Below the pieces are notes generated by a model, which was not told the DNA's origin, searched no databases, and was given only the letters and a program-made list of their open reading frames with translations. Shown in pieces: positions 1,360-20,965 of a DNA stretch of 20,965 bases (the first letter of the stretch is position 1; every line of letters begins with the position of its first letter). Source of the DNA: Desulfobacterales bacterium (GTDB taxonomy: Bacteria; Desulfobacterota; Desulfobacteria; Desulfobacterales; JAFDCJ01); NCBI GenBank assembly GCA_020345785.1, contig CP070771.1, forward strand, positions 6,564,961 through 6,585,925. Direction: 5' to 3'. The translations under genes were made by a program, and so were the position numbers.

Positions 1360-4300
1360 ATGCCCGATCCAATTCCTATTGCTATCATTGGAATGGGATG
1401 CCTATTCCCAAAGTCAACTGGTCTGAAAGAATATTGGCAATTGCTGTATCACGGTAAGGATGCGATTTCAGAAATTCCCAATACACATTGGCAGCCCGAG
1501 GAATATTTTGACAGTGACCCGAAACGGCCGGATCACGTATACTGCAAGCGCGGTGGATTTCTGGATCCGATCGTGTTTGATCCTGCAGAATTTGGTATAC
1601 TCCCTACTTCGCTGGAAGCCACCGATACATCCCAGTTGCTGGGGTTGCTGGCTGCCAAAATGGCCCTCGAGGATTCGGGCTACGGCGACGACCAGGATTT
1701 CGACCGCGATCGCACTTCTGTTATCCTGGGTGTGACCGGAACCCAGGAACTTGTGATTCCGCTAAGTTCACGCCTCGGTCATCCCAAATGGCGCAGGGCC
1801 CTTGAAGAGTCAGACATACCTGCGCACAAAACAGAAGAGATCATTCAGCGAATTTCCGACTCATACGTATCGTGGCAGGAAAACTCCTTTCCTGGCCTGC
1901 TGGGTAATGTGGTGGCAGGCAGAATATGCAATCGGCTGGATCTCAGAGGAACGAACTGCGTGGTGGATGCCGCCTGTGCCAGTTCCTTGAGTGCCGTCCA
2001 TCTCGCCATGCTCGAACTGATGTCAGGACGCAGTGATATGGTGGTCACCGGCGGGGTGGATACGCTAAACGACATTTTCATGCATATGTGTTTTTCCAAA
2101 ACCCTGACACTTTCTGCCACCGGGGATGCCAGACCTTTCTCAAAGGACGCCGATGGTACTGTACTTGGGGAAGGCATCGGAATGCTGGTTTTGAAAAGAC
2201 TCGCGGATGCTGAACGGGCAGGCAATCGAATTTACGCCGTAATTAAAGGACTGGGGTCTTCGAGTGATGGAAAATCACAGAGCATTTATTCACCCCGCAG
2301 TGAAGGACAGGCCCGCGCCCTGCGGACTGCCTATAAAAGTGCCGGCATTAGTCCAGCAACCGTCCAACTGATTGAGGCCCATGGAACCGGCACGCGGGTG
2401 GGTGATAAAGTTGAATTTGAAGCACTGAACCGCGTTTTCGACGAATTTGGCGCCAACGGAAACAAATGTGCATTGGGTTCAGTCAAATCCAACATCGGCC
2501 ACACCAAAGCATCCGCAGGCTCTGCGGGGTTGATCAAGGCAGCCCTTGGCCTCTATCATAAAGTTTTACCGGCAACTTTGAAAGCTGAGACCCCGGATCC
2601 CAATCTGAACATTAATAACAGCCATTTTTACCTGAACACCGCGACCCGCCCCTGGTGTTCAACCAATGATAATCCGCGGCGCGCCGGCGTCAGTGCCTTT
2701 GGTTTTGGCGGCAGCAATTTTCATGTGGTACTTGAAGAATATCGCCCTGACAAAACGGAAATAACCTGGGACGGCAGTACGGAAATTGTCGCTATGTCGG
2801 CCGAGCAACCCGAAGATTTAATCCAGCGCGTCAAACAGATAAAGCATGCTGTTGAGAACGGTTTGTCCGATCAGGAATTCAAATTCAGGGCTGCCGAATC
2901 ACGCCGTATTTTTTCCAGCGCACAACCCCACCGACTTTTAATGGTTTGTGAAAACATGGCAGATAAAGTGGATCTGCTTGAACGGGCTTTGAATGTATTA
3001 GATTACGGGTTAGAATATAACCAATTGAATTTAAAAAATATTTATAGTGGAGGCCCCCAAAATCCGGGAAAAATGGCGTTCGTGTTTCCAGGCCAGGGTA
3101 GTCAATACCTGGGGATGGGACGCGACATTGTCTGCACGTTTCCGCGGGCCATGTCGATTTTGGAAAAAGCGAATAAAATTTTTATAGGATCAACGTGTCT
3201 AAGCGATCTAATTTTTCCATGGGATGCATCGGATGATCAGGCGCGTAAAAAACATGAAACAAGCTTGCAGTTCACAGATAATGCCCAACCGTCCATCGGA
3301 ACGATAAGCTTGGCGATGCTCAGAGCATTAGAGGAGTTCGATATTGTCCCTGCGGCAACCTGCGGCCATAGCTTCGGGGAGTTGACGGCCCTTTGTGCCG
3401 CCGGCTGGATTGATGAGGCAGCCCTCCTGCAGCTTTCGATCACTCGTGGTCAGCTGATGGCAGCCGCCGGTGGCAGTCAAAATTCACCCAAAGGGGCCAT
3501 GCTTGCCGTTCAAATGCCCTTGGATGAACTGGAGGAACTGATCGCCGGTTCGAAACAAAATATTATTTTGGCCAACCGCAATAGCCCCAACCAGGGTGTT
3601 TTATCCGGTCCGACAAGTGCCATCCTTGAAATTGAAAAAATATGTAAAACCAGGAAAATCAGGGCCACTCGGCTGCCCGTTTCCGCTGCTTTCCACAGCG
3701 AAGAGGTTAAAAACGCCGCGGCGCCCTTCCTGGAAGAACTCTCCAAAGTCTCGATAACGCCAAAGAGTATTGATGTTTTTTCGAATACGACCGGCGAGGC
3801 GTATCCCACCGATCCGGATGCAGCCCGCAAATTATTGGGCAGGCATCTTACTCAACCGGTAGACTTCATCAAAGAAATTGAAAATCTATATCGTTCCGGC
3901 ATCCGAACATTTGTGGAAATCGGACCCAAATCAATCCTCACCGGGCTGATTTCTTCCATCCTGCATGACCGCCCTTTTGAAGCCGCAGCCATGGACGCAT
4001 CCGCGGGTAAGGCAAATGGGGTCGCCGATCTGGCCAGATTACTCTGCCGGCTTGCTTCTCTTGGCTATCCGGTGAAACTTTCCGAATGGGAATCCCTGAT
4101 TTCAGCGCCCCCCAAACCGCGGATGAATGTGCTTCTGAGCGGCACCAATTTTAGGAACCAGAAGACAGGCGATAGAAGACAGCGGACGGAAGACAGAGAA
4201 CAGAAGATAGAAAACAGAGGACAGAAAACAGAGGACGGAAATCAAAAGGACGATGTCAGAGAAGCATTGACTGAAGGCAGAAATCAGAAACCGGTGACCA

Positions 4301-7300
4301 TCAAATATACAAACGATCTAATCCATCATAACCAACTAAACGCACTCAGCGATCATAACCCTAATGATACAAAACCCTCAAGTAAACTAACCATTCAAAT
4401 TCCCAAAAATAACCTTTACGACAGTCAACAAGATATTATGAGTAAAAAATTCAGTAATACATCGGATTTTATCACGGATGCGTTAGGAGTCGTTCAAGAA
4501 GGCCTTAAATCAATGCAACGCCTTCAACATCAAACAGCCCAGGCTCACGAAAAATTTTTATTGACTCAGGCAGAGGCCAATCGTGCCCTGCAGGAGATGA
4601 TGAGAAATACGCAACGTTTAGCAGAGAGAACTCTGGGATTCGAAGCCACCGAGATTTTGGCAGTGCCTCCGCCGGAAAAAGTCCTGCAACCAGATCCCAT
4701 GCTGGATTTGGGAAAAAATATCCCTGACGTGATGGATCAAGCTCCTGCTCGACGTAAAGCTCTGGTGGATTATACGAAGAGCCCGGAAACATCGCCCTCC
4801 CCTGCTCCATGGAAGCTCCCCCACGCAACGGCCAACGGTTATTCAAAGGATGAGCAGGCGCATCACCGCAGGTCCGAGTTTGCGGAACCGCCCGCTGAGA
4901 AGCCCCAGGATTTGGGGACTGATCTTGAAACAACGATGTTGCAGGTCGTCAGCCAGCTGACGGGCTATCCGGTGGAAATGATCGGACTGGACATGGACAT
5001 TGAAGCCGATCTGGGCATTGATTCCATCAAAAGGGTGGAAATCCTCTCCGCACTTGAAGAAAAAATGCCTGATCTACCCGCGGTTTCACCCGATATCATG
5101 GGCGGTTTAAAAACACTGGGGCAGATTGCCGCATTTATGAACGGCAGTCATTCAGAGAAAAGTCATGTAAAACGATCCGAGGGTCCACTGGAAGCCGGTG
5201 GCCCACCAACGGCCGCAAGGCATTTGGAACCGGTTGAAAATCCTCAGAGTGATGTGATATCCGCGATGCTGGAGATCGTCAGTCAATTGACAGGCTATCC
5301 GCTGGAAATGCTCGGTCTGGATATGGACATCGAAGCCGATCTAGGCATTGATTCCATCAAAAGAGTGGAAATCCTCTCTGCACTTGAAGAAAAAATGCCT
5401 GATCTACCCGCGGTTTCACCTGAAGTAATGGGCACGTTAAAAACGCTGAGACAAATCTGTGATTATCTTGTGCAACGCACACACACCGGAACTGCCGGCA
5501 GTCCGGCCACTGAATCTCTGCCGAAGGGTTTAGCAGGTGTCGGCAACACAGCGCCAAAAGGTTCGCTCGATTCCGACGGGGGTGAGCTGCACCCGGAGGC
5601 GCTGCAAATCCCACGAAGTGTGGTAACGGTCGTAGAAGCACCCCCGATTTCTGAATCTACCGTGACCATTTCCGGCCATAAGAAAGTGTATGTTACTGAA
5701 GATAACACCGGTCTTTCCGAAGAAATCACCGAAGAACTGGCAAAGTTCGACATCAAAACCGTCAGAGTCTCCCTGGATATATTAAGGTACAAAAAGCAGC
5801 TTCCCGCGGCAGCCGGACTTATCATTGTCCAAGACCCCGGATCCGATCGGATCCACCAGGATTTAAAGGAAGCTTTTAACCTTTCGAAATTTCTGGCACC
5901 AGACCTCATCCATTCCGCCAATGATGGCGGTGCCGTGTTTGCAACCATCACTCGCCTGGATGGTGCCTTTGGCTTTAGAAAAATGCAAACGGAAAATCCT
6001 GAACAGGGCGGCCTGGGGGGGTTGGCTAAAACAGCCGCTATAGAATGGCCGAATGTTTGCTGCCACGCAATTGATATCGCACCGAACTGGCTGGACAATC
6101 GTAAGATTGCATCAACCGTTGTCAAAGAGATTATGACACCGGGCCCAATTGAAATCGGTCTTGATGACCGGTGTCGGATGACTTTATCCCGTGAGTCGAG
6201 ACCCTATCCGACAGGCGCCTTAAATCTTGACCAGCGCGATGTGCTAGTCATCAGCGGCGGTGCAAGAGGGATTACGGCCGCCGCGGCGCGTGAACTGGCC
6301 GCCCATACCGGTGTTACCCTTGTTTTGTTGGGTCGTTCTCCGAGTCCATTTGCGGAACCGGAATGGTTGACATCCACCGAGGGTGAATCCGCCATCAAAA
6401 AAGCGATTTTTGAAAACGAATACCACGGTCGAACCGCCACACCGGTCCAAATTGAAAAAGCCTACAATCACTACATGACCAATCGTGAAATTGCCGATAA
6501 TCTGACCCGATTGGAGGCGACCGGTGCAAATGTTCATTACTATTCAGCCGACGTCAGAAATTTGAAGACCGTCCAGGCAATCACCGATGAGATTCGTTCC
6601 AAATACGGATACATCACCGGCATCATTCATGGCGCCGGCGTACTGGAAGATCGCCTGATCATCGATAAAACCTCGGATCAATTTGAACGGGTTTATGATA
6701 CCAAAGTCATGGGATTGCATAACTTGCTGCAGGCCACCCGCAGCGATCCCTTAAAATACCTGGTTTTATTTTCCTCAGTGGCTGCTCGTTTTGGAAATAA
6801 GGGGCAGGTGGATTATGCCATGGCCAATGAAGCACTCAATAAGATCGCCCAAGCCGAAGCGTTCAGGCGCGCAGATTGCCGGGTTGTTTCGATCAACTGG
6901 GGTCCATGGGACGGCGGCATGGTAACCTCGGCTCTGAAACGTGAATTTGAGCGTAACGGCATCCACTTGATTCCTCCCGAATACGGCGCCAGGTGCATGC
7001 TTCATGAAATGATGGCGGGCAATAACAACCCGGTAGAAATCGTCATCGGTGCTGGCCTGGCGACTGCAACAGCGCCTACCCGCAAGCAACCCAAACGACC
7101 CGCGCTGGTCAAACCTTCACCCGGCATAAAAAAGCAGCATCTCGCGGTTGTCTTTGAGCGCGAAGTTGACCTGCGCCGATATCCCATTTTGAAGTCACAC
7201 ATGATCGACGGCAAACCGGTGCTACCTTTGGCCTTAATGATCGAGTGGTTTGCGCACGGCGCGCTGCATGAAAATCCCGGATTATTTCTGCACGGCTTGG

Positions 7301-7998
7301 ATGATATTCGCGTCATGAAAGGAATTCGCCTGGAAGATGACATAAAGTACGTTCGACTGCTGGCCGGCAAGCCTCAAAAGATCGGTGAATTCTTCGAAGT
7401 GGAAGTTGAATTAAGAGACGCTGAAACGGCCTCCCAGGACACCATTTACTCAAAAGGCCGGGCAATTTTGTGCGAAAGACTGGATGATGCCCCTGATTAT
7501 CACGCCTCTACGACCATGGTTGCCAAGGCCTACACGAGAAAAATGGATGAAGTTTATGATAAGATACTATTTCACGGTCCGCAGCTTCACGGAATCCGAA
7601 GAATTGTCAGCTGCTCATCCCGCGGCATCGTGGCCCATATTTCACCCGCACCCGCGCCGGCCCAATGGATAGCGGATCCGTTGAGAAATAATTGGATCGC
7701 CGATCCTCTGGTTTTGGATAGCGCATTTCAGATGGCAACCGTTTGGTGTTTTGAAGAGAAAGGGATTGTGTCGCTGCCAAGTTATGGTGAATCATACCGA
7801 CAATATTGTCATAAATTTCCTGCTGGTGGTGTAACGGTGGTACTGGAGATAAAAGAGGTGACCAACCGAAAAATGCGAGGAGATTTCACGTTTCTTGGCT
7901 CGGACGACGTGACAGTGGCACGTTTAACGGGTTACGAGGCCGTCATGGATGCATCATTGATTAAAGCATTTAAACCACAATACCGTGCTTCAGCCTAG
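1360..7998 (+). CDS. pfaA: PfaA-type polyunsaturated fatty acid synthase (KS-AT-ACP-ACP-KR-DH)
   Basis: 2212 residues. KS, about 5-460: catalytic C206 in DAACASS, H341 in HGTGT, H381 in NIGHT. Malonyl-type AT, about 570-880: S671 in GHSFGE, H779 in AAFHS. A low-complexity charged linker (932-965) comes from a DNA repeat. A helical segment (1027-1090) contains TAQAHEKFL. Two ACPs carry phosphopantetheine serines S1222 and S1332, both in LGIDSIKR. KR, about 1625-1850: GGARGIT nucleotide-binding loop, S1806, Y1819, N1823. The C-terminal PKS-type DH double hotdog has H1947 in HMIDGKPVLP and D2120 in LDSAFQ. The protein should load malonyl units and run the iterative condense-reduce-dehydrate cycle on its ACPs, with PfaD doing enoyl reduction and PfaC further condensation and dehydration/isomerisation. 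Two ACPs is few compared with the five or more of marine gammaproteobacterial PfaA. All visible catalytic residues are intact. The exact polyene product cannot be read from sequence. Confidence 0.93.
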   Translation: MPDPIPIAIIGMGCLFPKSTGLKEYWQLLYHGKDAISEIPNTHWQPEEYFDSDPKRPDHVYCKRGGFLDPIVFDPAEFGILPTSLEATDTSQLLGLLAAKMALEDSGYGDDQDFDRDRTSVILGVTGTQELVIPLSSRLGHPKWRRALEESDIPAHKTEEIIQRISDSYVSWQENSFPGLLGNVVAGRICNRLDLRGTNCVVDAACASSLSAVHLAMLELMSGRSDMVVTGGVDTLNDIFMHMCFSKTLTLSATGDARPFSKDADGTVLGEGIGMLVLKRLADAERAGNRIYAVIKGLGSSSDGKSQSIYSPRSEGQARALRTAYKSAGISPATVQLIEAHGTGTRVGDKVEFEALNRVFDEFGANGNKCALGSVKSNIGHTKASAGSAGLIKAALGLYHKVLPATLKAETPDPNLNINNSHFYLNTATRPWCSTNDNPRRAGVSAFGFGGSNFHVVLEEYRPDKTEITWDGSTEIVAMSAEQPEDLIQRVKQIKHAVENGLSDQEFKFRAAESRRIFSSAQPHRLLMVCENMADKVDLLERALNVLDYGLEYNQLNLKNIYSGGPQNPGKMAFVFPGQGSQYLGMGRDIVCTFPRAMSILEKANKIFIGSTCLSDLIFPWDASDDQARKKHETSLQFTDNAQPSIGTISLAMLRALEEFDIVPAATCGHSFGELTALCAAGWIDEAALLQLSITRGQLMAAAGGSQNSPKGAMLAVQMPLDELEELIAGSKQNIILANRNSPNQGVLSGPTSAILEIEKICKTRKIRATRLPVSAAFHSEEVKNAAAPFLEELSKVSITPKSIDVFSNTTGEAYPTDPDAARKLLGRHLTQPVDFIKEIENLYRSGIRTFVEIGPKSILTGLISSILHDRPFEAAAMDASAGKANGVADLARLLCRLASLGYPVKLSEWESLISAPPKPRMNVLLSGTNFRNQKTGDRRQRTEDREQKIENRGQKTEDGNQKDDVREALTEGRNQKPVTIKYTNDLIHHNQLNALSDHNPNDTKPSSKLTIQIPKNNLYDSQQDIMSKKFSNTSDFITDALGVVQEGLKSMQRLQHQTAQAHEKFLLTQAEANRALQEMMRNTQRLAERTLGFEATEILAVPPPEKVLQPDPMLDLGKNIPDVMDQAPARRKALVDYTKSPETSPSPAPWKLPHATANGYSKDEQAHHRRSEFAEPPAEKPQDLGTDLETTMLQVVSQLTGYPVEMIGLDMDIEADLGIDSIKRVEILSALEEKMPDLPAVSPDIMGGLKTLGQIAAFMNGSHSEKSHVKRSEGPLEAGGPPTAARHLEPVENPQSDVISAMLEIVSQLTGYPLEMLGLDMDIEADLGIDSIKRVEILSALEEKMPDLPAVSPEVMGTLKTLRQICDYLVQRTHTGTAGSPATESLPKGLAGVGNTAPKGSLDSDGGELHPEALQIPRSVVTVVEAPPISESTVTISGHKKVYVTEDNTGLSEEITEELAKFDIKTVRVSLDILRYKKQLPAAAGLIIVQDPGSDRIHQDLKEAFNLSKFLAPDLIHSANDGGAVFATITRLDGAFGFRKMQTENPEQGGLGGLAKTAAIEWPNVCCHAIDIAPNWLDNRKIASTVVKEIMTPGPIEIGLDDRCRMTLSRESRPYPTGALNLDQRDVLVISGGARGITAAAARELAAHTGVTLVLLGRSPSPFAEPEWLTSTEGESAIKKAIFENEYHGRTATPVQIEKAYNHYMTNREIADNLTRLEATGANVHYYSADVRNLKTVQAITDEIRSKYGYITGIIHGAGVLEDRLIIDKTSDQFERVYDTKVMGLHNLLQATRSDPLKYLVLFSSVAARFGNKGQVDYAMANEALNKIAQAEAFRRADCRVVSINWGPWDGGMVTSALKREFERNGIHLIPPEYGARCMLHEMMAGNNNPVEIVIGAGLATATAPTRKQPKRPALVKPSPGIKKQHLAVVFEREVDLRRYPILKSHMIDGKPVLPLALMIEWFAHGALHENPGLFLHGLDDIRVMKGIRLEDDIKYVRLLAGKPQKIGEFFEVEVELRDAETASQDTIYSKGRAILCERLDDAPDYHASTTMVAKAYTRKMDEVYDKILFHGPQLHGIRRIVSCSSRGIVAHISPAPAPAQWIADPLRNNWIADPLVLDSAFQMATVWCFEEKGIVSLPSYGESYRQYCHKFPAGGVTVVLEIKEVTNRKMRGDFTFLGSDDVTVARLTGYEAVMDASLIKAFKPQYRASA
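4153..4260 (+). repeat. In-frame gacagaagacag-type repeat inside the AT-ACP linker
   Basis: Short degenerate words of the form aacagaagacag/gatagaagacag/gaggacagaaaacag recur across this stretch. They encode a charged run rich in Q, K, E, D and R (residues 932-965 of the PfaA-type protein). The same word family occurs between genes at 20768-20812 and again in the PfaC-type gene near 16656-16684. This suggests an intergenic repeat that expanded or inserted in frame. Confidence 0.7.
4939..5467 (+). repeat. Tandem duplication of the ACP domain
   Basis: The two carrier domains repeat with a 330-base period (110 codons). Bases 5041-5090 and 5371-5420 differ at one position only (49 of 50 identical). 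The linkers outside the cores are unrelated, which points to recent duplication or gene conversion restricted to the carrier cores. Confidence 0.85.
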
Positions 7999-8952: not shown

Positions 8953-9582
8953 CTACTGTTCTTCCGATCCCTTTATTCTCTTTGACCTGTCTTTAACCCG
9001 CGAAAGCCCGGGGCTGTTATGCAAATACATTAAAGGCGAACGGCATCCAATATTCATAAAATATGATTCCAGGGCATCAAAAAGAACCGGCCGATCCGGC
9101 CAGGTGAACAGCTTTCTTTTTTGTTCCATTAATTTCCATTTTTTCTGGAGCTGATGATTTTTCCCGAAAACCAGTTCCTTAGACCGGTCGCACAGAAACA
9201 TTTGACAGACAATTGGTTTAATGCGCCAGAGACAGCCTTTTTCCGTGAGATAAACACATTTGAAACCCTCATTCGGCTTATTGAGCACCGCCAAAATGCT
9301 GTCGAAGTCATCGCCGTCTGAAACCATAAGATTGACTACAATGTCGGCAAAAAAGGTGATAATTCCTTCACGCGAACAGCAGGCACTTAGCCGGCTCTGG
9401 TAACAGGTTCGAGTGCATACCTGGCCGAAATTATCTGATAGAAAGCCGTCAATCTCGCTACGAAACTTAAGATAGTCGGCTATCAATTTTTCCAATTCCC
9501 GTCGCTTAGACGCTGGCAATTTATCAAGCTGTGTCTTTACCAGCGTCATAGCGTCGATCTGCTCTCTGTGATAGGAATTCAT
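8953..9582 (-). CDS. YkgJ-like cysteine-cluster (putative zinc/iron-chelating) protein
   Basis: 209 residues. Two cysteine clusters are visible: C56, C60, C68, C69 in CTRTCYQSRLSACC, and C109, C117, C126, C131 in CVYLTEKGC followed by KPIVCQMFLC. This spacing resembles the YkgJ/UPF0153 family, in which eight cysteines are proposed to bind zinc or an iron cofactor. No signal peptide is seen. An N-terminal helical segment (residues 5-45, rich in K, L and E) precedes the cluster, and the last 15 residues are basic. The biochemical role of the family is not established. The start ATG at 9580-9582 lacks a clear Shine-Dalgarno but directly precedes the helical region. It is divergent from the flavoprotein gene and has no visible link to lipid synthesis. 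Confidence 0.65.
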   Translation of the reverse strand: MNSYHREQIDAMTLVKTQLDKLPASKRRELEKLIADYLKFRSEIDGFLSDNFGQVCTRTCYQSRLSACCSREGIITFFADIVVNLMVSDGDDFDSILAVLNKPNEGFKCVYLTEKGCLWRIKPIVCQMFLCDRSKELVFGKNHQLQKKWKLMEQKRKLFTWPDRPVLFDALESYFMNIGCRSPLMYLHNSPGLSRVKDRSKRIKGSEEQ

Positions 9583-9833: not shown

Positions 9834-11042
9834 ATGAATTCAATTGCTAAGAAAAAAAACAGCTTCGATGTCGTTGTCATCGGAGCGGGACCCGCGGGAG
9901 CAACTGCAGCATACTTATTGGCTTCAAAAGGGTTCAAGATTCTTATTGTTGAAAAAAGTACTTTTCCCAGAGATAAGCTCTGCGGTGGTCTATTGACCCT
10001 GAAAACCGTCAAGTTGCTGGAGAGCATTTATGGAATATCCCTCGACGACATGAAAAATCAGCGTATCATCACCTATCAGAGTTTTAACTACAAAGTCGGC
10101 AGCAGTAAAGGGGGGGCCATCAAAGGTCGCCTGGATTATCCTTTTCACTTCGTACAGCGCAGTGTTTATGATGCTTTTTGGTTAGAAATGGCGCAAAAAG
10201 CAGGGGCTGAGTTCAGAGCCGGAGAAAAAGCCGTTGCATTGGATATCTCAAGTAAAAAACTGACAACCAACAAGGGTTATGAAATATACGGAAATTATAT
10301 TTTGGCCGCAGATGGTGCCCTCAGCAGAACCAGAAGATTGCTGTCCACGGCGGGACTCATTAAACCGGACAGGCAGTCGGAGATGGCCACGACTCTAGAA
10401 GTCTTTATATCAAACCGACACATACCTGAACAGACGGACTATCCGGCTATTTATTTCGGTTATATTCCGTGGGGTTACAGCTGGAATTTTCCGGGGGAAC
10501 ACTTTCGTATCCTTGGTATTGTCGGATTGAATGTTAAGGCCGGCCGATTTCTCAGAAAAGGCTTTCGTACATTTTTGAAGTCGCTGAATATTTCCGTGAA
10601 GAGATTTCCCCCTTTTAGGAGTCACGCCCTGCCTTACGGGAGTTTTCTTTCCGATCCCGGATACAGTAATGTGCTATTGCTCGGTGATGCCTGTGGACTG
10701 GTGGACCCTTTTCTCGGTGAAGGTCTTTATTATGCCCACAAAAGCGCCCAACTGGCAGCCAGAGCTCTTTTGAAGTCATATGACGATTCGCAGGCGGTTT
10801 TAAAGTGTTACAGGCGCTGTTTGGAGCAGAATATTATTGCGGAACTTAAGCGGATTCGAATGATCCGACGGATCATTTTTACTTTGCCCGGAAATTGGCC
10901 TTACAGAATTTTATCCTTTATCCTTGAAACAATGCCCAAACCATGTGAAGAAGCCTTGCAGGGAGATCGCCCGGTTAAATGGCTTCGTCCGGGATGCAAT
11001 GAGAAAGTCTTTCGTCAGAACAAACTTTGCAATAAAAGGTAG
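9834..11042 (+). CDS. Geranylgeranyl-reductase-family FAD-dependent oxidoreductase
   Basis: 402 residues. The Rossmann FAD-binding start is GAGPAG at 17-22, followed by the PRDKLCGG loop (45-52) typical of the geranylgeranyl reductase/FixC group. P212-x-x-Y215-x-W217-x-F219-P220 (PWGYSWNFP) fits the substrate-pocket motif known from archaeal geranylgeranyl reductases. The second FAD motif, LGDACGLVDPFLGEG, lies at 283-297. Family members reduce C=C bonds of isoprenoid chains (archaeal lipids, chlorophyll side chain, menaquinone). In this setting the substrate could be a quinone, an isoprenoid lipid or, speculatively, the Pfa-derived polyene. The start at ATG 9834 has no obvious Shine-Dalgarno; an N-terminal KKK stretch precedes the FAD fold. 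The stop codon lies within the terminator stem. No signal peptide or transmembrane helix is apparent. Confidence 0.82.
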   Translation: MNSIAKKKNSFDVVVIGAGPAGATAAYLLASKGFKILIVEKSTFPRDKLCGGLLTLKTVKLLESIYGISLDDMKNQRIITYQSFNYKVGSSKGGAIKGRLDYPFHFVQRSVYDAFWLEMAQKAGAEFRAGEKAVALDISSKKLTTNKGYEIYGNYILAADGALSRTRRLLSTAGLIKPDRQSEMATTLEVFISNRHIPEQTDYPAIYFGYIPWGYSWNFPGEHFRILGIVGLNVKAGRFLRKGFRTFLKSLNISVKRFPPFRSHALPYGSFLSDPGYSNVLLLGDACGLVDPFLGEGLYYAHKSAQLAARALLKSYDDSQAVLKCYRRCLEQNIIAELKRIRMIRRIIFTLPGNWPYRILSFILETMPKPCEEALQGDRPVKWLRPGCNEKVFRQNKLCNKR

Positions 11043-11077
11043 AGTGGTGCTATCGCCGCACCACTCTACCTTTTATT
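11031..11077. terminator. Strong bidirectional rho-independent terminator
   Basis: A perfect 20-bp inverted repeat (11031-11050 and 11058-11077) has a 7-base loop TATCGCC. The GC-rich core is GGTAGAGTGGTGC, flanked by A-tracts and T-tracts on either side, so it can stop transcripts in both directions. It contains the flavoprotein stop codon (TAG 11040-11042) and lies between convergent genes. Confidence 0.9.
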
Positions 11078-11191: not shown

Positions 11192-11623
11192 TCATGCCCC
11201 GACATAAACGCCTCGTCCGGATTTTTTGATTCTGCCCTCTTTAGCAGCCCTAAAAACGATATTGCGCACTTTTTTATCATCAAAACCGGTCTTTTTTTTC
11301 AGTGTCGGCACATCAACACCTTTTTTGGTGCGTTTGATGATTTTTAAAATCTGATCGGTTGCCGTCGGTTTCCCGGCCTTTTTTCCGGGGGCTGTCTTTT
11401 TAGCAGCTGTTTTTGCTACCGCAGCCTTTTTAGCAGCAACCTTCTTGACGGCTGTCTTTTTAGCAGCTGCCCTTTTTGCAGGTCGGGCTTTAACCGTCTT
11501 CTTTTTCGCAGCCTTTTTAGCCGGTCCCGCTGATCCAGCTGCCTTTAATAATTTCTCCATTTTTTTCTCAAGGGCCTTAAAGTCTTTTTTTAATGCTGTC
11601 AGTTCTTTCTTTGAAATGGCCAT
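11192..11623 (-). CDS. Histone-H1-like basic nucleoid protein with C-terminal winged-helix-like domain
   Basis: 143 residues from ATG 11621-11623, chosen for the excellent GAGGAGG Shine-Dalgarno about eight bases upstream; a start seven codons earlier has no such site. Residues 1-33 form a lysine-rich coiled-coil-like helix (MAISKKELTALKKDF...). Residues about 35-90 are KKAAAKK/AVKKVAAKKA-type repeats, as in eukaryotic H1 tails, Hc1/Hc2 and AlgP-like proteins. Residues about 88-143 (ATDQILKIIKRTKKGVDV, then LKKKTGFDDKKVRNIVFRAAKEGRIKK) look like a compact winged-helix domain ending GRGVYVGA. The protein likely binds DNA non-specifically and compacts or organises the nucleoid. Nothing ties it to lipid synthesis. 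It converges with the flavoprotein and diverges from the PfaC-type gene. Confidence 0.78.
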   Translation of the reverse strand: MAISKKELTALKKDFKALEKKMEKLLKAAGSAGPAKKAAKKKTVKARPAKRAAAKKTAVKKVAAKKAAVAKTAAKKTAPGKKAGKPTATDQILKIIKRTKKGVDVPTLKKKTGFDDKKVRNIVFRAAKEGRIKKSGRGVYVGA

Positions 11624-11665
11624 TCTTTTAATCCTCCTCAACAAATTAATTAAAATTACTCCTGG

Positions 11666-12202: not shown

Positions 12203-15200
12203 ATGAACCCCAAAAACCCGATAGCAGTAGTCGGAATGGCCGGCCTCTTCCCAGGAGCCGTTAACCTCGATCTTTTCTGGCAAAACATCATCAACAAAGT
12301 CGATGCAGTCGGTGAGGCAGATGCAAATCGCTGGCAGGTTGATCCAGGTTCAATGGTCTCGAGGGGATTTCAACCCGACAAGGCTTATTCCAAGTATTGC
12401 TGCCTATTACCAGATTTTATATTCGATCCCTCGGGCCTAGCCCTGGATGAAGGCTTAATAACCGCTCTCGACCCGCTTTATCACGTTGTCCTGCATGTCG
12501 GTCGCGAGGCGCTAGCCGGAATCCCGCAATCAAGCTTAAACCGTCACCGCACCGGTGTGGTCCTGGCCGCCATTGCCTTGCCGACGGACGCAACTTCTAC
12601 AATTACCAGAAAGGTTCTGGGAACAGCTTTAGAAGAAAAACTATTTGCCGGCGCCGCTGATTATAAAAAAAGCACCGATGTTCAATTTTTCTCCCGCTAC
12701 CATTATCTGGCCGGTCGCGTCACCAGCCTGCCGGGCGCTGTTCTGGCAAAAGCTTTAGGCCTGGGAAACGGAACTTATACCCTCGATGCAGCTTGCGCAT
12801 CCTCCCTATATGCCGTCAAGTTGGCTTGCGATGAACTGCATGCCCATCGTGCCGACGCGATGCTGGCCGGAGGTGTATCAAGACCCGATTGCCTCTTTAC
12901 CCAGGTCGGATTCAGCCAGCTAAGAGCGCTGTCCCCCTCCGGTCGCTGTGCCCCCTTTGACGAGAGTGCCGATGGTCTTGTCGTCGGAGAAGGGGCGGGT
13001 ATGGTTGTTCTCAAACGTTTGGCCGATGCCTTACGGGATAAGGATTCAATTTACGGTCTGATTCACGGCGTCGGCCTTTCCAACGACATGCGGGGCACCC
13101 TGCTTGCCCCGGACAGCGAAGGCCAGCTGCGCGCCATGCGAAAAGCTTACGATTTCTGCGGCTGGTCCCCCCATGACATCGATCTGATCGAGTGTCATGG
13201 TGCCGGAACACCACTAGGAGACCTGACCGAGTTAAATAGTTTGCGAAACCTATGGCAGGACTCCGGATGGGAAGAATATCAATGTCGTATCGGATCAATT
13301 AAGTCCATGATCGGCCATTTGTTGACCGCTGCCGGTGCCGCCGGCATGATTAAAACCCTTTTGGCCTTGCAACACAAAACACTTCCTCCGTCATTGAATT
13401 TCCAGCGAGCGCCTCAGAACAGCCCGCTGTACAATGGTCCTTTCCGAGTGCAAACTGAACCTGAAACTTGGCATCGGAACAGAGATCACCAGCCACGTCG
13501 GGCTGCCGTCAGTGCCTTTGGATTCGGCGGCATTAATGCCCACATGCTGTTGGCGGAATATGATGAGAATTCGGAATTCGGAAGTCGGAAGTCGGAAGGC
13601 AGAAAATTAAAAATCGATTCAAAAAAACCTGACCCTCGCGTCTACGAACTGTCTGACCGCCAATTCGAGTTTGCCGGGAAACCGGCAGAAGCAATTCCGC
13701 ATTCCGCATTCCGCACTCCAAATTCAGATATTGCCATTATCGGCATGGAGGCGGCTTTTGGATCTGTCGCCTCTTTGAGAGCTTTTCAAGAACTTATTTT
13801 TAATGGTGAAAGTAATTTCAGAGACCGCCCGCCGCTGCGCTGGAAAGAGTGCGACCCTGTGGCAAATGCATGTCTGTCCAACCGATATTTAAGCGGCGGT
13901 TTCTGCGAGAAAATAGCGGTTGCCGCCAACGAATTCCGCATCCCGCCGAAGGAAATTCCGGATATTCTTCCCCAGCAACTTTTAATGCTAAAAGTTGCTG
14001 CCGGTGCCATGCGGGATGCCGGCTTGCCCTTGCGGAAAGATCGCCCTGAAATGGGCGCGATTATCGGTATTGATTTTGAGTTTGAGTCCACTAGTTTTCA
14101 CTTGCGCTGGCACTTGAAGAAAATGCTTGCTGAGTGGATGGAAAAACTCGGCCGGACCTTCCAGGAAGCGGAAGACGACACTTGGCTGGAATCAATAAAA
14201 GAAGCCTGTAGCCCGCCCCTTACAGCCACACGAACCATCGGTGCGTTAGGCGGAATCGTTGCCAGCCGTATCGCCCGAGAGTTTCGTTTTGGCGGCCCGA
14301 GTTTCGTGGTCTCCTGTGAGGATGCGGGCGGCTTAAAGGCATTGGAAATCGGTGTCAGGGCCTTGCAGCAAGATGAGGCCGATGCCTTTCTGATAGGAGC
14401 GGTGGATTTAAGCGGGGATGTCCGCAACATCATCTTGGCCAACCAGGTGCGACCTTACTCCCGGAAAGGACAAATCCAGCCTTTTGATCAGGACGCCGAC
14501 GGCACACTGCCCGGTGAGGGCGCCGCGGCATTGGTCATCAAACGCCTTGATCGGGCAATTGCTGACGGAGACAGGATATATTCGGTCATCAAAGGCATCG
14601 GTTGTGCCAGCGGCGGCGGCATCGACCTCAGCACACCTACCAGTGAGGCTTATGGGCGTTCCCTTAAAAACTGCTGCCAGGATGCCGATACCGCACCTGC
14701 GGCGATTAGTTTTGTGGAAACCCACGGCAGCGGCAATCCGGCGGAAGACGATCTGGAGTCAATTGCCCTGCATGAAGTTTTCGGCGGCCGTCAGGATCCC
14801 TGTGCTGTCGGCTCGGTCAAGGCCAACATCGGCCACACCGGCGCCGCATCGGGCCTGGCTGCTCTGGTCAAAACCAGCTTAAGCCTTTATCACGAAATTA
14901 TGCCGCCCCTGATTAACTTCATCACTCCCAGAAACTCGCAGTGGCTCAAGGAAGATTTTCATTTTCCGATGTACCCTCAATACTGGCTCAGAAATCGTTG
15001 CGATGGGACGCGAAAAGCTCTGGTCGGTTCCATGACACCCGACGGCAATTGCATGCATGTCATGCTCGAAGGTTACGATTATGAGTCCACAGGCGAAGGT
15101 CAACCGCCGATACTGCAAAAAGTTGCCCTTGAAAAAAAAAGACCGCTGGGATTACAAGCCTTTGGTCTTTATTGCGTGGAAGGAAACACCAGAAAGGCCT

Positions 15201-18200
15201 TGCTCGAGGGTCTGGATTTACTCGATCAGCATATTGAATATTTTATGGCAACATCCGCCGTAGCCAACGGACCCTCCAAACCGGCCACCGTCGAAGAAGC
15301 GGCTCGAACCTGGCACGCGGCAAATCGTCTGAATCCTGCGCTCAAGTATGCCGTATCGATTGCGGCGGCTGATTTTTCGAATTTGAAGAATTGGATTGCG
15401 ACTGCCAAAGAAGCGGTTTTGTCGGATAGCCCTCTGAAAATGGGAAGCAACGGCGGCGTCAGGTATTCACCCCATCCGCTGGGACACAAGGGGAAACTGG
15501 CTTATGTATTCCCCGGATCGGGCAGTCACTATCTGGGTATGGGCCGGGATATCGGCGTGCACTGGCCGCTCATTTTACATGAGATGGACGTTGAGACGTT
15601 GCGCTTAAAGACCCAGATGCTGCCGGATTGCTATATTCCCTGGCGGGTTTCATGGGCGCCAGGCTGGCAGCAAGAAGCGTATAACAAGATCATCTCCGAT
15701 CCTTTACACATGATTTTCGGCCAGGTGGTGCATGGCGGTATGATGGCCAACCTGATGAGACATTTTGGAATTCAGCCGTCAGCAGTTATCGGCTATAGCC
15801 TGGGCGAATCAACAGGTTACTTTGCCATGAATGTCTGGCCGGAACGCGGTGAAATGCTCAAACGGATGCAGGCCACCAATTTATTCACAACGGAACTGGC
15901 CGGACCATGCAACGCGGCCCGCCAGGCATGGGGCATCCCTTCCAACGAAGACGTCCTCTGGCGAGTAGCGGTCGTGAATCGCTCGGCCGATGCGGTAGGC
16001 CGAATCCTCGATCGTTATCCAACTATCCGCTTGCTGATTATTAACACGCCCGAAGAATGCGTCATCGGCGGCCGCCTGCCAGATGTCAAGGCCGCCATTC
16101 AGGATTTAAAATGCGAAGCAATTTTTTTGCAGGGTGTCGTAACGGTGCATTGCGACGCTCTGAAACCGGTTACCGATGCTTACCGGGATTTGCATGTGTT
16201 TCCCACACGACAGCCGGAAGGCATTCGCTTTTACAGCTGTGCTCTTGGACGCGCCTATGAGCTAACCAGTGAAAAGGCGGCCAATTCCATCCTCAACCAG
16301 GCGCTGCACGGGTTTGATTTTACGGCCACCGTCAACCAGGCGCACCGTGATGGTGTTCGCATATTCCTGGAGCTCGGACCGTATTCGTCGTGTACACGCA
16401 TGATCAATCGTATCCTGCAAGACAAACCCCATCTGGCCATTTCGACCTGCGTTCAGGGTGAAAAGGATTACATCACCATCATCAAGGTTCTGGGAGCCTT
16501 GATTGCCGAACGCATGGAGGTTGACCTGGAAATGCTGTACGACCCCGGTGCATATCCACCGGCGTTGAATGAGCCGGTTGCCGAATTCCCCCAAGAGCAG
16601 ATAAGCGTGATCATCGGCGGCAAAGCGCCCTCACCTTCCCTGTCGGATTTTTCAGACAAAAGACAGAAGACGGAGAGCAGAATGCCGAAACCGGTCGAAG
16701 ACGATCATGGGCACGCAAGCCACGCGGGGATTTCAGAGCTGATTGAAACCGCCAACCGCGTTGCTCAAAGCACGGCAGAGGCCCACCAGAAATTTTTGGA
16801 ACTCTCCGAGGAGATCACCCGGTCCTATGCGGAAACATTCAACCTACAAACCAGGCTCCTGGAACACGCCATGGAGACGGGTGAGGATGTCATTTCAGCT
16901 CCCGCAAGAAAAACCGCCGTTTCGTGGAGGGATCATTCCGATCCTGCAGCCTCCCGATTGCCATCTTCGAGTCCTGATACTCGGCATTCCGTTCCCGCGT
17001 TCGATCGCACGGCGTGCTTGGAATTTGCAATTGGATCTGCAGCCAAGGTCTTGGGACCTGAGTTTGCCGACGTGGACCGCTATGCCGCCAGGGTGCGGCT
17101 GCCGGATGAACCTCTCATGCTGGTGGATAGGATCATTTCCGTCGAGGGGGAAAAAGGATCACTGGGTTCCGGACGCATCGTCACCGAGCATGATGTCATG
17201 CCCGACGCATGGTACCTGGACGGCGGCCATGCGCCGGTTTGTATCTCGGTTGAGGCCGGACAGGCGGATCTTTTTTTATGTGCTTATTTGGGTATCGATC
17301 TCAAGGTCCAAGGCAGGCGAACTTATCGGCTGTTGGATGCGACCGTCAAGTTTCACCGGGAGTTGCCGCTCCCTGGGGAAACCGTCCGCTATGAGATTGA
17401 AATTGAAAAGTTTATTCGTCAGGGAGACACCTATCTCTTTTTATTTCATTTCAAGGGTTTCATCGGTGACACCCCCCTGATTACCATGACCAATGGATGT
17501 GCCGGCTTTTTTACCGAGGAAGAAGTCAAAAACTCGGGCGGCATTGTCCTGACCCAGGAAGACCGCCGGCCGGTTGCTGGCAAAAGGCCTTCCAACTGGC
17601 AGGAATTCGTCCCGTTGGACCGTGCAAGCTACGATGACATGTCGGTTGAAGCCCTGCGACAGGGCAACTTGTCTGATTGTTTCGGTAATGACTTTAAAGG
17701 CATATCACTGCCCCATGACTTAAGGCTGCCCGGCGGACGGATGAAATTGATCGACCGGATCGTCAGTCTTGATCCTTCCGGCGGACGATTCGGATTGGGT
17801 TTAATTCAATCTGAGGCTGATATTCATCCGGAGGCCTGGTATTTAACCTGTCATTTCATTGATGACATGGTGATGCCGGGCACCTTGATGTATGAATGCT
17901 GTGCGCATACCCTGCGTGTATTTCTGCAGCGTATCGGGTGGGTGACTGAAAAATCCGGCGTGTTTTATGAACCGGTCAGGCAAATCGAAGCAACATTAAA
18001 ATGCCGGGGCCCCGTGACACCGCAAACCCGACGCGTCATCTATGAAGTCGAAATCAAAGAAATTGGTTACCGACCCGCACCTTACGTGGTTGCTGATGCG
18101 TATATGTATGCCGACGGACATCGCATCGTCTATTTTCGCGACATGTCCATGCAGATGAGCAACATCACCCGGGATGAAATTGAATCCATATGGCGGGAAC

Positions 18201-19378
18201 GGCGCACACGGCAGATGGCGGCATCAGCGCGCTCCGCGAAGTCGGTGCTGTTTGATCGTCCTCACATGCTGGAATTCGCCGCAGGGCAGCCATCGGGGGC
18301 CTTCGGCCATGCTTACGAACCATTTGACCGTCAGCGCTTTATTGCACGTCTTCCGCAACCGCCCTATCTGCTCATCGACCGCATCGTCAAGGCCGAGCCC
18401 GAAGCCTGGGTGCTGAAACCGGACGGCTGGATTGAAGCCGAATGTGATGTTGATCCGGCTGCCTGGTATTTTAGAGCTGAAAGAACACCGGCTGCGCCCA
18501 TCTGCATCCTGCTTGAAATTGCACTGCAACCCTGCGGCTGGCTGGCTGCCTACCTGGGATCGGCCTTGCGAAGTCAAAATGATCTCAGATTTCGCAATCT
18601 GGGCGGCAACGCCACCTTGCATGGCGAAGTACGGCCGGACACAGGATTGCTTACAATTAAAACCCGATTGACCAAGGCTTCGGAAGCAGCCGACATGATC
18701 ATCGAACACTTTGATTTCGAAGTGCACCGGCGAGACCGTAAAATATATACCGGCAATACGTACTTCGGATTTTTTACCCAGGAAGCCCTGGCGCGGCAGG
18801 AAGGCATCCGCGACGCTGACAAACAGGCCTATTTCGCGGAACATGATAAACTCCGTACGAGCGCTGTTCAGGATTTTGTTGATTACCCCCCTCTCCATCC
18901 GCAGGATCCCGCATCGGTTGCAGCAACCGCATTGGCGCTGCCGGCCAAAGCCATTCGAATGATCGACCGCATTGAAGCATACCTGCCTGACGGTGGTTCC
19001 AAGGGCCTCGGTTTTATACGTGGGACCAAGAAGATTGATCCGCAGGAGTGGTTTTTCAAGGCCCACTTTTATCAGGATCCGGTATGTCCCGGCTCGCTGG
19101 GCATCGAGTCCTTTATTCAGCTGCTAAAGTTCGTTGCCTGCGAGCGTTGGCCGCAATTAGCGAATAGTCACCGTTTCGGACTGGTCACCGGTGCCGAGCA
19201 TTCTTGGATTTATCGCGGTCAGATCCTACCGGCCAATCGACAGGTTACCGTCGAAGCCGAAATCACCAATATCGCGGACACGCCTGATCCGGGCATATTG
19301 GCCGACGGTTTTCTGAAAGTTGACGGATTGTATATCTACCAGATGAAAAATTTTGGTATCAAACTGGTGCCGGTATAA
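12203..19378 (+). CDS. pfaC: PfaC-type polyunsaturated fatty acid synthase (KS-CLF-AT-DH tetradomain)
   Basis: 2391 residues from ATG 12203, which has GGAA just upstream; a TTG six codons earlier has no ribosome site. KS, about 5-445: C198 in DAACASS, H332 in CHGAGT, H372 in MIGHL, all intact. Chain-length-factor-like KS, about 506-960: D707 (SCEDAGG) stands where the catalytic cysteine should be, while H841 and H878 remain. AT, about 1098-1410: S1199 in GYSLGE, H1316 in TVHCD, resembling PfaB. A helical segment (about 1510-1560) carries TAEAHQKFL. Four FabA-like hotdogs follow. Units 1 (1627-1786) and 3 (2047-2200) lack the normal catalytic histidine. Units 2 (H1884 in CHFIDDMVMPG, E1898) and 4 (H2288 in AHFYQDPVCPG, E2302) look active. 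This alternation matches the pseudo-DH/DH pairing known for PfaC. It should extend and dehydrate/isomerise ACP-bound chains made on PfaA. The built-in AT recalls myxobacterial Pfa3, so no free-standing PfaB is needed. Confidence 0.92.
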   Translation: MNPKNPIAVVGMAGLFPGAVNLDLFWQNIINKVDAVGEADANRWQVDPGSMVSRGFQPDKAYSKYCCLLPDFIFDPSGLALDEGLITALDPLYHVVLHVGREALAGIPQSSLNRHRTGVVLAAIALPTDATSTITRKVLGTALEEKLFAGAADYKKSTDVQFFSRYHYLAGRVTSLPGAVLAKALGLGNGTYTLDAACASSLYAVKLACDELHAHRADAMLAGGVSRPDCLFTQVGFSQLRALSPSGRCAPFDESADGLVVGEGAGMVVLKRLADALRDKDSIYGLIHGVGLSNDMRGTLLAPDSEGQLRAMRKAYDFCGWSPHDIDLIECHGAGTPLGDLTELNSLRNLWQDSGWEEYQCRIGSIKSMIGHLLTAAGAAGMIKTLLALQHKTLPPSLNFQRAPQNSPLYNGPFRVQTEPETWHRNRDHQPRRAAVSAFGFGGINAHMLLAEYDENSEFGSRKSEGRKLKIDSKKPDPRVYELSDRQFEFAGKPAEAIPHSAFRTPNSDIAIIGMEAAFGSVASLRAFQELIFNGESNFRDRPPLRWKECDPVANACLSNRYLSGGFCEKIAVAANEFRIPPKEIPDILPQQLLMLKVAAGAMRDAGLPLRKDRPEMGAIIGIDFEFESTSFHLRWHLKKMLAEWMEKLGRTFQEAEDDTWLESIKEACSPPLTATRTIGALGGIVASRIAREFRFGGPSFVVSCEDAGGLKALEIGVRALQQDEADAFLIGAVDLSGDVRNIILANQVRPYSRKGQIQPFDQDADGTLPGEGAAALVIKRLDRAIADGDRIYSVIKGIGCASGGGIDLSTPTSEAYGRSLKNCCQDADTAPAAISFVETHGSGNPAEDDLESIALHEVFGGRQDPCAVGSVKANIGHTGAASGLAALVKTSLSLYHEIMPPLINFITPRNSQWLKEDFHFPMYPQYWLRNRCDGTRKALVGSMTPDGNCMHVMLEGYDYESTGEGQPPILQKVALEKKRPLGLQAFGLYCVEGNTRKALLEGLDLLDQHIEYFMATSAVANGPSKPATVEEAARTWHAANRLNPALKYAVSIAAADFSNLKNWIATAKEAVLSDSPLKMGSNGGVRYSPHPLGHKGKLAYVFPGSGSHYLGMGRDIGVHWPLILHEMDVETLRLKTQMLPDCYIPWRVSWAPGWQQEAYNKIISDPLHMIFGQVVHGGMMANLMRHFGIQPSAVIGYSLGESTGYFAMNVWPERGEMLKRMQATNLFTTELAGPCNAARQAWGIPSNEDVLWRVAVVNRSADAVGRILDRYPTIRLLIINTPEECVIGGRLPDVKAAIQDLKCEAIFLQGVVTVHCDALKPVTDAYRDLHVFPTRQPEGIRFYSCALGRAYELTSEKAANSILNQALHGFDFTATVNQAHRDGVRIFLELGPYSSCTRMINRILQDKPHLAISTCVQGEKDYITIIKVLGALIAERMEVDLEMLYDPGAYPPALNEPVAEFPQEQISVIIGGKAPSPSLSDFSDKRQKTESRMPKPVEDDHGHASHAGISELIETANRVAQSTAEAHQKFLELSEEITRSYAETFNLQTRLLEHAMETGEDVISAPARKTAVSWRDHSDPAASRLPSSSPDTRHSVPAFDRTACLEFAIGSAAKVLGPEFADVDRYAARVRLPDEPLMLVDRIISVEGEKGSLGSGRIVTEHDVMPDAWYLDGGHAPVCISVEAGQADLFLCAYLGIDLKVQGRRTYRLLDATVKFHRELPLPGETVRYEIEIEKFIRQGDTYLFLFHFKGFIGDTPLITMTNGCAGFFTEEEVKNSGGIVLTQEDRRPVAGKRPSNWQEFVPLDRASYDDMSVEALRQGNLSDCFGNDFKGISLPHDLRLPGGRMKLIDRIVSLDPSGGRFGLGLIQSEADIHPEAWYLTCHFIDDMVMPGTLMYECCAHTLRVFLQRIGWVTEKSGVFYEPVRQIEATLKCRGPVTPQTRRVIYEVEIKEIGYRPAPYVVADAYMYADGHRIVYFRDMSMQMSNITRDEIESIWRERRTRQMAASARSAKSVLFDRPHMLEFAAGQPSGAFGHAYEPFDRQRFIARLPQPPYLLIDRIVKAEPEAWVLKPDGWIEAECDVDPAAWYFRAERTPAAPICILLEIALQPCGWLAAYLGSALRSQNDLRFRNLGGNATLHGEVRPDTGLLTIKTRLTKASEAADMIIEHFDFEVHRRDRKIYTGNTYFGFFTQEALARQEGIRDADKQAYFAEHDKLRTSAVQDFVDYPPLHPQDPASVAATALALPAKAIRMIDRIEAYLPDGGSKGLGFIRGTKKIDPQEWFFKAHFYQDPVCPGSLGIESFIQLLKFVACERWPQLANSHRFGLVTGAEHSWIYRGQILPANRQVTVEAEITNIADTPDPGILADGFLKVDGLYIYQMKNFGIKLVPV
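13563..13725 (+). repeat. In-frame inverted-repeat element in the KS-CLF linker
   Basis: The left arm (13563-13603) consists of gaattcgga/ttcggaagtcgga words. The right arm (13691-13725) is attccgcattccgcattccg, essentially the reverse complement of the same family. Together they form an imperfect palindrome around about 87 bases. It encodes linker residues about 454-508 of the PfaC-type protein without breaking the frame. Confidence 0.6.
16656..16684 (+). repeat. Short gacaaaagacagaagacg-type repeat in the PfaC linker
   Basis: Between the AT and the helical segment, the words gacaaaagacagaagacg and gagagcagaatg recur. They encode a charged DKRQKTESR-like stretch (about residues 1485-1495). 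The words match those at 4153-4260 and 20768-20812. Confidence 0.5.
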
Positions 19379-19450
19379 ATTATAATAATTAGCGTATAGT
19401 TTATTGTTGGAGAGGATGCACAAGTATTGGCTACTTGATGAAAAAAATAA

Positions 19451-19664
19451 AAATTCCAAGCACCAATAACCAAACATCAAACAAATCCCAATGACCCAAA
19501 TTCAAAATTCCAGACAAATGATCCATCTAAAACTATTCCAAGTCGCTCACTATCGCAACAGTCACGTGGCAAACAGATGCCATACAATTTTTGACAAATG
19601 TTTTGGTCATTGGAAATTGAAAATTGAGATTTATTTGTAATGTGGTGCTTGAAATTTGGAATTT
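19451..19664. repeat. Large imperfect palindrome, MITE-like intergenic element
   Basis: The left arm (19451-19520) starts AAATTCCAAGCACCA and contains CAATGACC and ACAAATG. The right arm (19591-19664) is its degenerate reverse complement, ending GGTGCTTGAAATTTGGAATTT and containing CATTTG-type, TGGTCATTGG and TTATTTGT words. About 70 unrelated bases lie between them. It fills most of the 345-base gap between the PfaC-type and OleA-like genes. There is no transposase, so it is at most a non-autonomous element or structured repeat. Confidence 0.65.
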
Positions 19665-19723
19665 CATAGTTTGCTCGAAGCTTATGATATGATTACCACA
19701 CAATAAAAGAGAATTAAAAAATT

Positions 19724-20764
19724 ATGATATACTCTAGTGTCTACCTCGATGCCTTCGGATATGAACTTCCGCCCAATGTGATAACGTCAGACGATCTGGA
19801 ATCGCGTCTGGAACCGGTATATGAGGCGCTCCACTTCCAGCCGGGACAACTGGAGGCGATCACCGGCATCCGGGAACGCCGATTCTGGGATCCGGATTAC
19901 AAAATGCACGTCGGTGCGATAAAAGCCGGCCGAAAAGCCTTGGAAGCCTGCAATGTCGATCCAGCGCACATCGGCCTGCTGATTTACGGCGGTGTTTGCC
20001 GAGACAACCTGGAGCCGGCCACGGCATGTGCCGTGGCAGACGGATTGGGCCTGGGAACGGATATCCAGATTTATGATGTCTCCAATGCCTGTCTGGGAGT
20101 TTTAAATGGAATGGTACAGGTGGCCAATGCCATAGAATTGGGTCAGGTGCAGGCCGGCATGATCGTTTCATGTGAGTCCGCTCGCCAAATCATAGACATC
20201 ACCATTGACCGGTTGCTTGAAACCAAGGATATGGAAGTTTTCAAAAAAACGATTGCAACTTTGACCGGGGGGTCCGGTGCCGTGGCCGTAGTTTTAACAA
20301 ATCAATCTTTGTCGGATTCCGGGCATCGCATTCTGGGGGGCACCGCCAGAAGTGCACCTGAGCATCATCAACTCTGTGTCTGGGGACCGGATACCGGTAT
20401 TCCGGCCAGCGGTTTACACAAAATGGAGACCGATTCTGTGCGGGTACTCCAAAGTGGTGTGGTTCTCGGGATTGATACCTTCCAGTCGTTTCGCCGCGAA
20501 CTCTCCTGGCCCAACAATAAACCGGATAAAATTATCTGCCATCAGGTGGGCGCCACCCACCAGCGCAATATCCTGGATGCCATCGGCATTGATCAATCCA
20601 AAGACTTTACTACCTTCAAGTTCCTCGGAAATATCGGTACGGTTTCGCTGCCGATCACAGCCGCCATTGCCTCGGAAAGAGGATTTCTTTTGCCGGGGGA
20701 TCTCGTCGGTTTTCTGGGGATCGGAAGCGGATTAAATTGCCTGATGCTGGGGCTGGAATGGTAA
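19724..20764 (+). CDS. oleA: OleA-like head-to-head acyl condensing enzyme (thiolase/FabH fold)
   Basis: 346 residues, the usual length of OleA and FabH. The catalytic triad is C123 (SNACLGVLNGM), H273 (ICHQVG) and N303 (LGNIGTVSLP). The C-terminus GIGSGLNCLMLGLEW closely resembles that of Xanthomonas OleA as I recall it. The GIRERRFWD and RDNLEPATA segments also fit OleA better than FabH, which usually ends GGGLTWG. OleA joins two long acyl-CoA (possibly acyl-ACP) chains by non-decarboxylative Claisen condensation to a 2-alkyl-3-keto acid, which then yields ketones or, with OleBCD, olefins. Placed directly after PfaC, it could use the polyene acyl product. A FabH-like priming role is the alternative. 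The start ATG 19724 has only a weak AGAG ribosome site. OleB, OleC and OleD are not in the window. Confidence 0.72.
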   Translation: MIYSSVYLDAFGYELPPNVITSDDLESRLEPVYEALHFQPGQLEAITGIRERRFWDPDYKMHVGAIKAGRKALEACNVDPAHIGLLIYGGVCRDNLEPATACAVADGLGLGTDIQIYDVSNACLGVLNGMVQVANAIELGQVQAGMIVSCESARQIIDITIDRLLETKDMEVFKKTIATLTGGSGAVAVVLTNQSLSDSGHRILGGTARSAPEHHQLCVWGPDTGIPASGLHKMETDSVRVLQSGVVLGIDTFQSFRRELSWPNNKPDKIICHQVGATHQRNILDAIGIDQSKDFTTFKFLGNIGTVSLPITAAIASERGFLLPGDLVGFLGIGSGLNCLMLGLEW

Positions 20765-20965
20765 GGGATGACAGAGGACAGAAGACTGATAACAGAAGAT
20801 AGAGGACAGATAAATACAGGTTTCGGGTGTCAGGTGTCAGACCAACCGCTGGCGGCGGAGCGGCCAGTTTGATCGATAATCGAAACTCAAAAAAGCGAAT
20901 ATCGAATAATGAATATTCCGCCGGAGGCGGATCGAAGGAAGGTATTCTGTCTATTTTATAAAAAA
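20765..20965. repeat. Repeat-rich intergenic tail
   Basis: No gene is visible in the last 201 bases. Bases 20768-20812 are gacagaggacagaagac-type words, the same family as inside the two megasynthase genes. At 20822-20840 is a gggtgtcaggtgtcag duplication. From 20872 come cgataatcgaa/gcgaatatcgaataatgaata words. A small GC hairpin, TCCGCC-gga-GGCGGA, sits at 20917-20931. No convincing terminator with a T-tract follows the OleA-like gene. Confidence 0.6.

Follow-up and report, generated by a model that had tools for sequence, protein, structure and literature searches.

An OleA-type condensing enzyme behind a PfaBC-type synthase: part of a probable pfa-ole cluster in a Desulfobacterales genome

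The 20,965-nucleotide stretch of Desulfobacterales DNA analysed here (the window) very probably holds the left-hand and central parts of a pfa-ole gene cluster, in which acyl chains made by Pfa proteins would be joined head to head on the way to a very long polyene olefin. An earlier note on this DNA had proposed a dedicated pathway to a polyene ketone or hydrocarbon in place of a free PUFA. The hydrocarbon part of that proposal is the best reading, because the condensing enzyme is of the OleA type and the pfa-ole cluster is conserved in Desulfobacterales-type genomes. An olefin is a likelier end product than a ketone, given that oleB, oleC and oleD stand behind oleA in most relatives (38/54).

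The window contains the 3' end of pfaD, pfaA, a pfaBC-type gene and oleA together. The pfaD fragment (1–549, + strand; enoyl reductase) is cut by the left edge and covers positions 292–442 of the 444 in profile TIGR02814 with 209.4 bits, the cut-off of 449.25 applying to the whole protein. The product of pfaA (1360–7998, +) has the domain order KS-AT-ACP-ACP-KR-PS-DH, assigned from TIGR02813 (1477.6 bits, cut-off 1010.1), Pfam domains and motifs, i.e., the KS cysteine at residue 203, the AT motif GHSFG at 669 and the ACP motif LGIDSIKRVE at 1218 and 1328. Of the 12 relatives looked at, 10 have pfaA behind pfaD in the same orientation, with about 5 kb between the two at L090; L088 is on a contig that breaks off shortly past pfaD, and L094 (genome G004) has no pfaA nearby.

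The third gene (12203–19378, +) encodes KS, CLF and AT domains and four FabA-like units, as read from Pfam domains and motifs. Its reading frame opens with a TTG at 12185, and the ATG at 12203 is the start chosen in the earlier note. Pfam detected two ketoacyl synthases, a weak AT and four FabA stretches. Two of the four FabA-like units carry the HF..D.V.PG active-site motif, and the second KS-like domain, read by eye, lacks the active-site cysteine. The name PfaC rests on domain order, with no PfaC model match over a cut-off behind it, and because the protein also carries an AT we describe it as a PfaBC-type fusion; with the pfaB family TIGR02816 it scored 100.4 bits, below the cut-off of 144.3. 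Heptamer-like tracts of the GAAGACAGAGGACAGA type occupy in-frame positions in linkers between the domains of pfaA and pfaBC (4161–4260, 13574–13617 and 16652–16695) and again behind oleA (20767–20810). The strict form of this tract was present in 3 of 80 related loci (L012, L018 and L026) and in none of the shuffled controls.

Judged by its sequence, the 346-residue protein encoded by oleA (19724–20764, +) is an OleA-type enzyme, predicted to condense acyl chains head to head, and not a FabH. It scored 476.8 bits with family model NF006720, over the cut-off of 285, and only 73.9 bits with the FabH model TIGR00747, far under its cut-off of 292.1. We take NF006720 to be the OleA model, although NCBI describes it only as 3-oxoacyl-ACP synthase III; this assumption is backed by the best-matching solved chains and by the oleC and oleD neighbours in relatives. 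The nearest solved chains were the 3fk5/3row group (1.5e-59, full length), presumably OleA from Xanthomonas; the best other KAS III reached 3e-20, and PqsD 1.1e-14. PqsD chains reached at most 57.8 bits, against 205.3 for the best OleA-type chain. Residues E97, C123, H273 and N303 align with X. oryzae OleA, so that both the triad and the glutamate (Glu117 in what we take to be the Xanthomonas numbering) are present, and the C-terminus carries GIGSGLNC. The earlier note had correctly described the intact Cys123-His273-Asn303 triad, the C-terminal motif and the OleA-like character of the enzyme, as well as the position of its gene directly downstream of PfaC: the two are 345 bp apart, both on the + strand.

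A tree of OleA and FabH sequences, which the earlier note had suggested, placed the window's protein with the OleAs at 100/100. The tree has 56 rows: the window, 3fk5, 16 OleAs from a set of 80 relatives (described below), 29 of the 31 OleAs of a phylum sample and nine FabH-like proteins; the two other phylum OleAs are from G006 (included as L028) and G007 (left out), and no Shewanella OleA, PqsD or G. bemidjiensis sequence is among the rows. The 47 OleA rows split from the nine FabH-like rows at 100/100, and a FabH placement was rejected on this split and on the low score with the FabH model. The position of Glu97 is E in 47/47 OleA rows and F or M in 9/9 FabH-like rows. Far from FabH, the window's OleA lies inside a 30-row clade (100/100) that it shares with OleAs of Geobacteraceae. 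Rows L128–L135 form a supported group (100/100) within this clade, and L132 has its nearest named relatives in Geomobilimonas, Geobacter, Geomonas and other Geobacteraceae.

The phylum sample comprised 297 genomes from the phylum of G006, searched with NF006720. Some match was found in 282 genomes and a match above the cut-off in 31, with a gap in scores from 319.7 to 153 bits. pfaC adjoins oleA in 13 of the 15 loci with an OleA identity of at least 54% and in 0/16 loci below 50%, some of the latter showing weak KS matches (24–29%) some kb off. Two of these 15 loci (G006 and G007) also belong to the set of relatives, so there is some dependence between the two counts. Sixteen of the 18 oleA loci unlinked to pfaC fall outside the window's clade; inside it, L134 and L137 lack pfaC beside oleA. 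In a comparison of OleA with plasmids (104 records), all were below 60% identity, and the 30 listed matches were 24–29% identical.

Conservation of the linkage was also apparent in relatives. These are the best 80 of 167 confirmed loci, 65–82% identical at OleA and mostly labelled Desulfobacterales, Desulfobacteraceae or Deltaproteobacteria, with one Calditrichota. Twelve of the 80 were too short for the upstream count. Among the 68 with at least 600 b upstream, 57 have a pfaC dehydratase region in the same orientation no more than 2.5 kb ahead of oleA, including L023, where a 2-kb gap holds other ORFs. Such a region is missing in 11 (L021, L033, L035, L036, L037, L041, L045, L046, L047, L052 and L079). 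With pfaC ahead of oleA in 57/68 related loci, the pairing goes beyond chance. The distances of OleA and those of PfaC are correlated (r 0.88, 29 pairs), which in a comparison lacking a control gene indicates no more than shared descent.

Downstream of oleA, all of oleB, oleC and oleD were found in 38 of 54 loci with at least 4.5 kb of sequence (best 80 of 167); the remaining 16 have oleB and oleC (3), oleB only (7) or none (6). The arrangement nearest the window's is on a 34.9-kb contig of G008, which runs pfaD-pfaA-flavoenzyme-pfaBC-oleA-oleB-oleC-oleD. At L002, the downstream OleB is haloalkane-dehalogenase-like, below the cut-offs of those models. The OleC of this locus scored 762.2 with NF006754 (cut-off 478) and, short of the respective cut-offs of 900 and 850, 640.3 and 622.9 with two models for olefin beta-lactone synthetase, and its OleD scored 390.3 with the OleD model, below 580.

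The earlier note had also reported seeing no oleB, oleC, oleD or PPTase. This is true of the window, which extends only 201 bp past oleA, and oleB, oleC and oleD most likely lie just past its right edge, as at L001, L026 and L034, where they come within about 0.4 kb of oleA. In 13 of 54 relatives with at least 4.5 kb downstream (best 80 of 167), oleC does not stand beside oleA. A genome search for OleC covered 15 genomes, i.e., those 13 and the genomes of L013 and L063. OleC was over the cut-off in 11 of the 15, two of the 11 matches carrying an in-frame stop, and was not found over the cut-off in those of L013, L014, L023 and L035, with a partial match of 381.8 bits for L014. In 10 of the 13, another part of the genome encodes an OleC that passes the cut-off, and we therefore rejected the idea that relatives without oleC beside oleA are ketone makers. 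L023 and L035 (genomes G313 and G314) keep oleA and oleB with no OleC above the cut-off found in their genomes; the olefin step may have been lost, or the assemblies may be incomplete. A gene of the PPTase family (ACPS) was found in 11/12 relatives, away from the cluster, and in G006 the only such gene is about 2.8 Mb from it.

For this pathway we infer the acyl donor, the chain length, the product and each catalytic step, along with the presence of oleBCD in this genome. A polyunsaturated acyl chain would be assembled by the Pfa proteins while attached to the PfaA ACPs, with PfaD acting as enoyl reductase. OleA would then take one chain on Cys123 and condense it with a second chain to a beta-keto acid, with Glu97 as the probable base. 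By the finishing route that PMC6463001 sets out for OleD, OleC and OleB, the beta-keto acid would be reduced, lactonised and decarboxylated, giving a very long polyene olefin, for example C31:9, the product of Geobacter and Shewanella.

A different acyl donor is conceivable. OleA could condense ordinary FAS II acyl chains, as the Xanthomonas-type enzyme does (PMC6463001), while the adjacent Pfa synthase makes a separate lipid, e.g., free PUFA. The 11/68 relatives without pfaC upstream of oleA, together with clade rows L134 and L137, would fit such an arrangement. On the other hand, phylum-sample OleAs without pfaC mostly lie outside the window's clade (16/18 unlinked loci), and for Shewanella, PMC6463001 states that OleA accepts the Pfa-derived chain alone even though FAS II is present. 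We consider FAS II chains an improbable substrate here.

It is still less probable, and in our view quite unlikely, that the cluster leads only as far as a ketone or some other product of OleA, such as a beta-lactone, without the full olefin route. The presence of oleBCD in 38/54 relatives and of OleC elsewhere in 10 of 13 speaks against this, even though oleBCD are not in the window and oleC is not beside oleA in 13/54 relatives. There is a negligible chance that the 346-residue protein acts as a FabH (KAS III), the enzyme that initiates ordinary fatty acid synthesis. The thiolase fold and the Cys-His-Asn triad are common to both enzymes, but the protein reached 73.9 of the 292.1 bits set for FabH, and the nine FabH-like rows, which lack the glutamate, fall outside the OleA rows at 100/100.

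The preferred reading, a Pfa-fed route to a polyene olefin, has precedents. Pairing of Pfa and Ole is not new, and the idea of a polyene hydrocarbon is already in print (PMC3098273, PMC4882568). The linkage of pfa and ole genes was reported in 2011 (PMC3098273), and the use of Pfa chains by OleA was shown in 2019 (PMC6463001): pfaA–E and oleA of Shewanella pealeana expressed in E. coli gave a 31:8 ketone, and S. pealeana itself makes both EPA and a polyene hydrocarbon. In G. bemidjiensis, a strict anaerobe that produces C31:9, the genes pfaD, A, B, C, oleA, B, C, D and pfaE form a tandem array (PMC4882568).

By the descriptions in these papers, the window shares the order pfaD, pfaA, pfaBC, oleA with the G. 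bemidjiensis cluster (PMC4882568; Type I of PMC3098273) and the pfaBC fusion with Type I (PMC3098273). Its OleA falls in one 100/100 clade with OleAs of Geobacteraceae, G. bemidjiensis itself being outside the tree, but OleAs of the Geobacteraceae-type loci L128–L135 are only 54–59% identical to it. Unlike the G. bemidjiensis cluster, which has pfaE, the relatives searched have no linked PPTase, and the window has a flavoenzyme gene between pfaA and pfaBC. Shewanella Pfa and oleABCD (PMC6463001) are similar in that OleA works with a Pfa synthase, whereas PfaB and PfaC are separate there; this likeness is by published description, with no Shewanella sequence compared. The Type C cluster of the sulfate reducer Desulfatibacillum alkenivorans (PMC3098273) also has a pfaBC fusion with the order KS-CLF-AT-DH2, but its pfaD is at the 3' end and that of the window at the 5' end, and the window's type was not set by a KS tree.

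Literature searches in which subscription journals were poorly covered found no paper on oleABCD in Desulfobacter, none on a Desulfobacterales PUFA synthase, and only PMC3098273 on an OleA-pfaC operon; all of this is weak evidence of absence. What is added here is the spread of the pfa-ole cluster in Desulfobacterales-type genomes and this example of it. In lake metagenomes, oleC of Desulfobacteraceae and Desulfatibia was reported from anoxic water (PMC10176705), and the pfa linkage suggests that the olefins behind these genes are polyenes. Polyene olefins can be checked for in lipids of sediment and anoxic water.

Xanthomonas OleA (3fk5, 3row) matches the window's protein over its full length, with the same Glu, Cys, His and Asn residues and GIGSGLNC, but differs in one loop. 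After Leu217-Cys218 the loop of the window's OleA (WGPDTGIPASG) exceeds that of 3fk5 by about nine residues and carries Trp-Gly one residue further along. This Trp-Gly pair occurs in 30/30 rows of the window's clade and in 0/17 other OleA rows of the 56-row tree. The Pfa-partnered OleAs of the phylum could thus be a distinct subfamily, in which the loop is a docking or channel feature that lets OleA take chains directly from the Pfa ACPs or hold the polyene. We find this rather doubtful: Trp-Gly follows a single clade and so reflects one event, two of the 30 clade rows (L134 and L137) have no pfaC beside oleA, and L141, L148 and L149, outside the clade, have loops of similar length without Trp-Gly. 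As a marker the Trp-Gly loop is possible, a lead only; if it also holds in Shewanella, it would give a sequence marker for Pfa-fed OleA. The oleA of L034 (10001–10987) encodes 328 residues, without a stretch that its relatives have ahead of the Leu-Cys motif.

The flavoenzyme gene (9834–11042, +) encodes an FAD enzyme of the geranylgeranyl reductase family (TIGR02032, 183.9 bits, cut-off 158.8). It precedes pfaBC in the window and at L002, L026 and L034, and adjoins pfaC upstream in 3 of the 27 relatives whose sequence reaches 2.3 kb or more ahead of pfaC (best 80 of 167). Its best relatives in G004 and G006 are on the same contig as oleA but far away, and with adjacency this rare we rejected a required role for it in the pathway. 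An inverted repeat with perfect 20-nt arms around a 7-nt loop (11031–11077) spans the end of this gene and is followed by a T-rich stretch; it is a possible terminator before pfaBC. The 345-bp gap between pfaBC and oleA holds no other + strand ORF of at least 80 aa, and the two genes may be co-transcribed across it. Folded as DNA, the gap is not unusual (z −1.28), terminator-like sites around it are about as frequent as chance predicts (3, against 2.2 expected for the region), and an Rfam search of the window gave no match. Two small genes lie on the − strand. A cysteine-rich ORF of 209 aa (8953–9582) had no match in Pfam or NCBIfam, and relatives of it stand beside pfa genes at L018, L032, L073, L089 and L091. 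The other (11192–11644) encodes a small Lys/Ala-rich, histone-H1-like protein, with relatives in the same place at L002 and L034.
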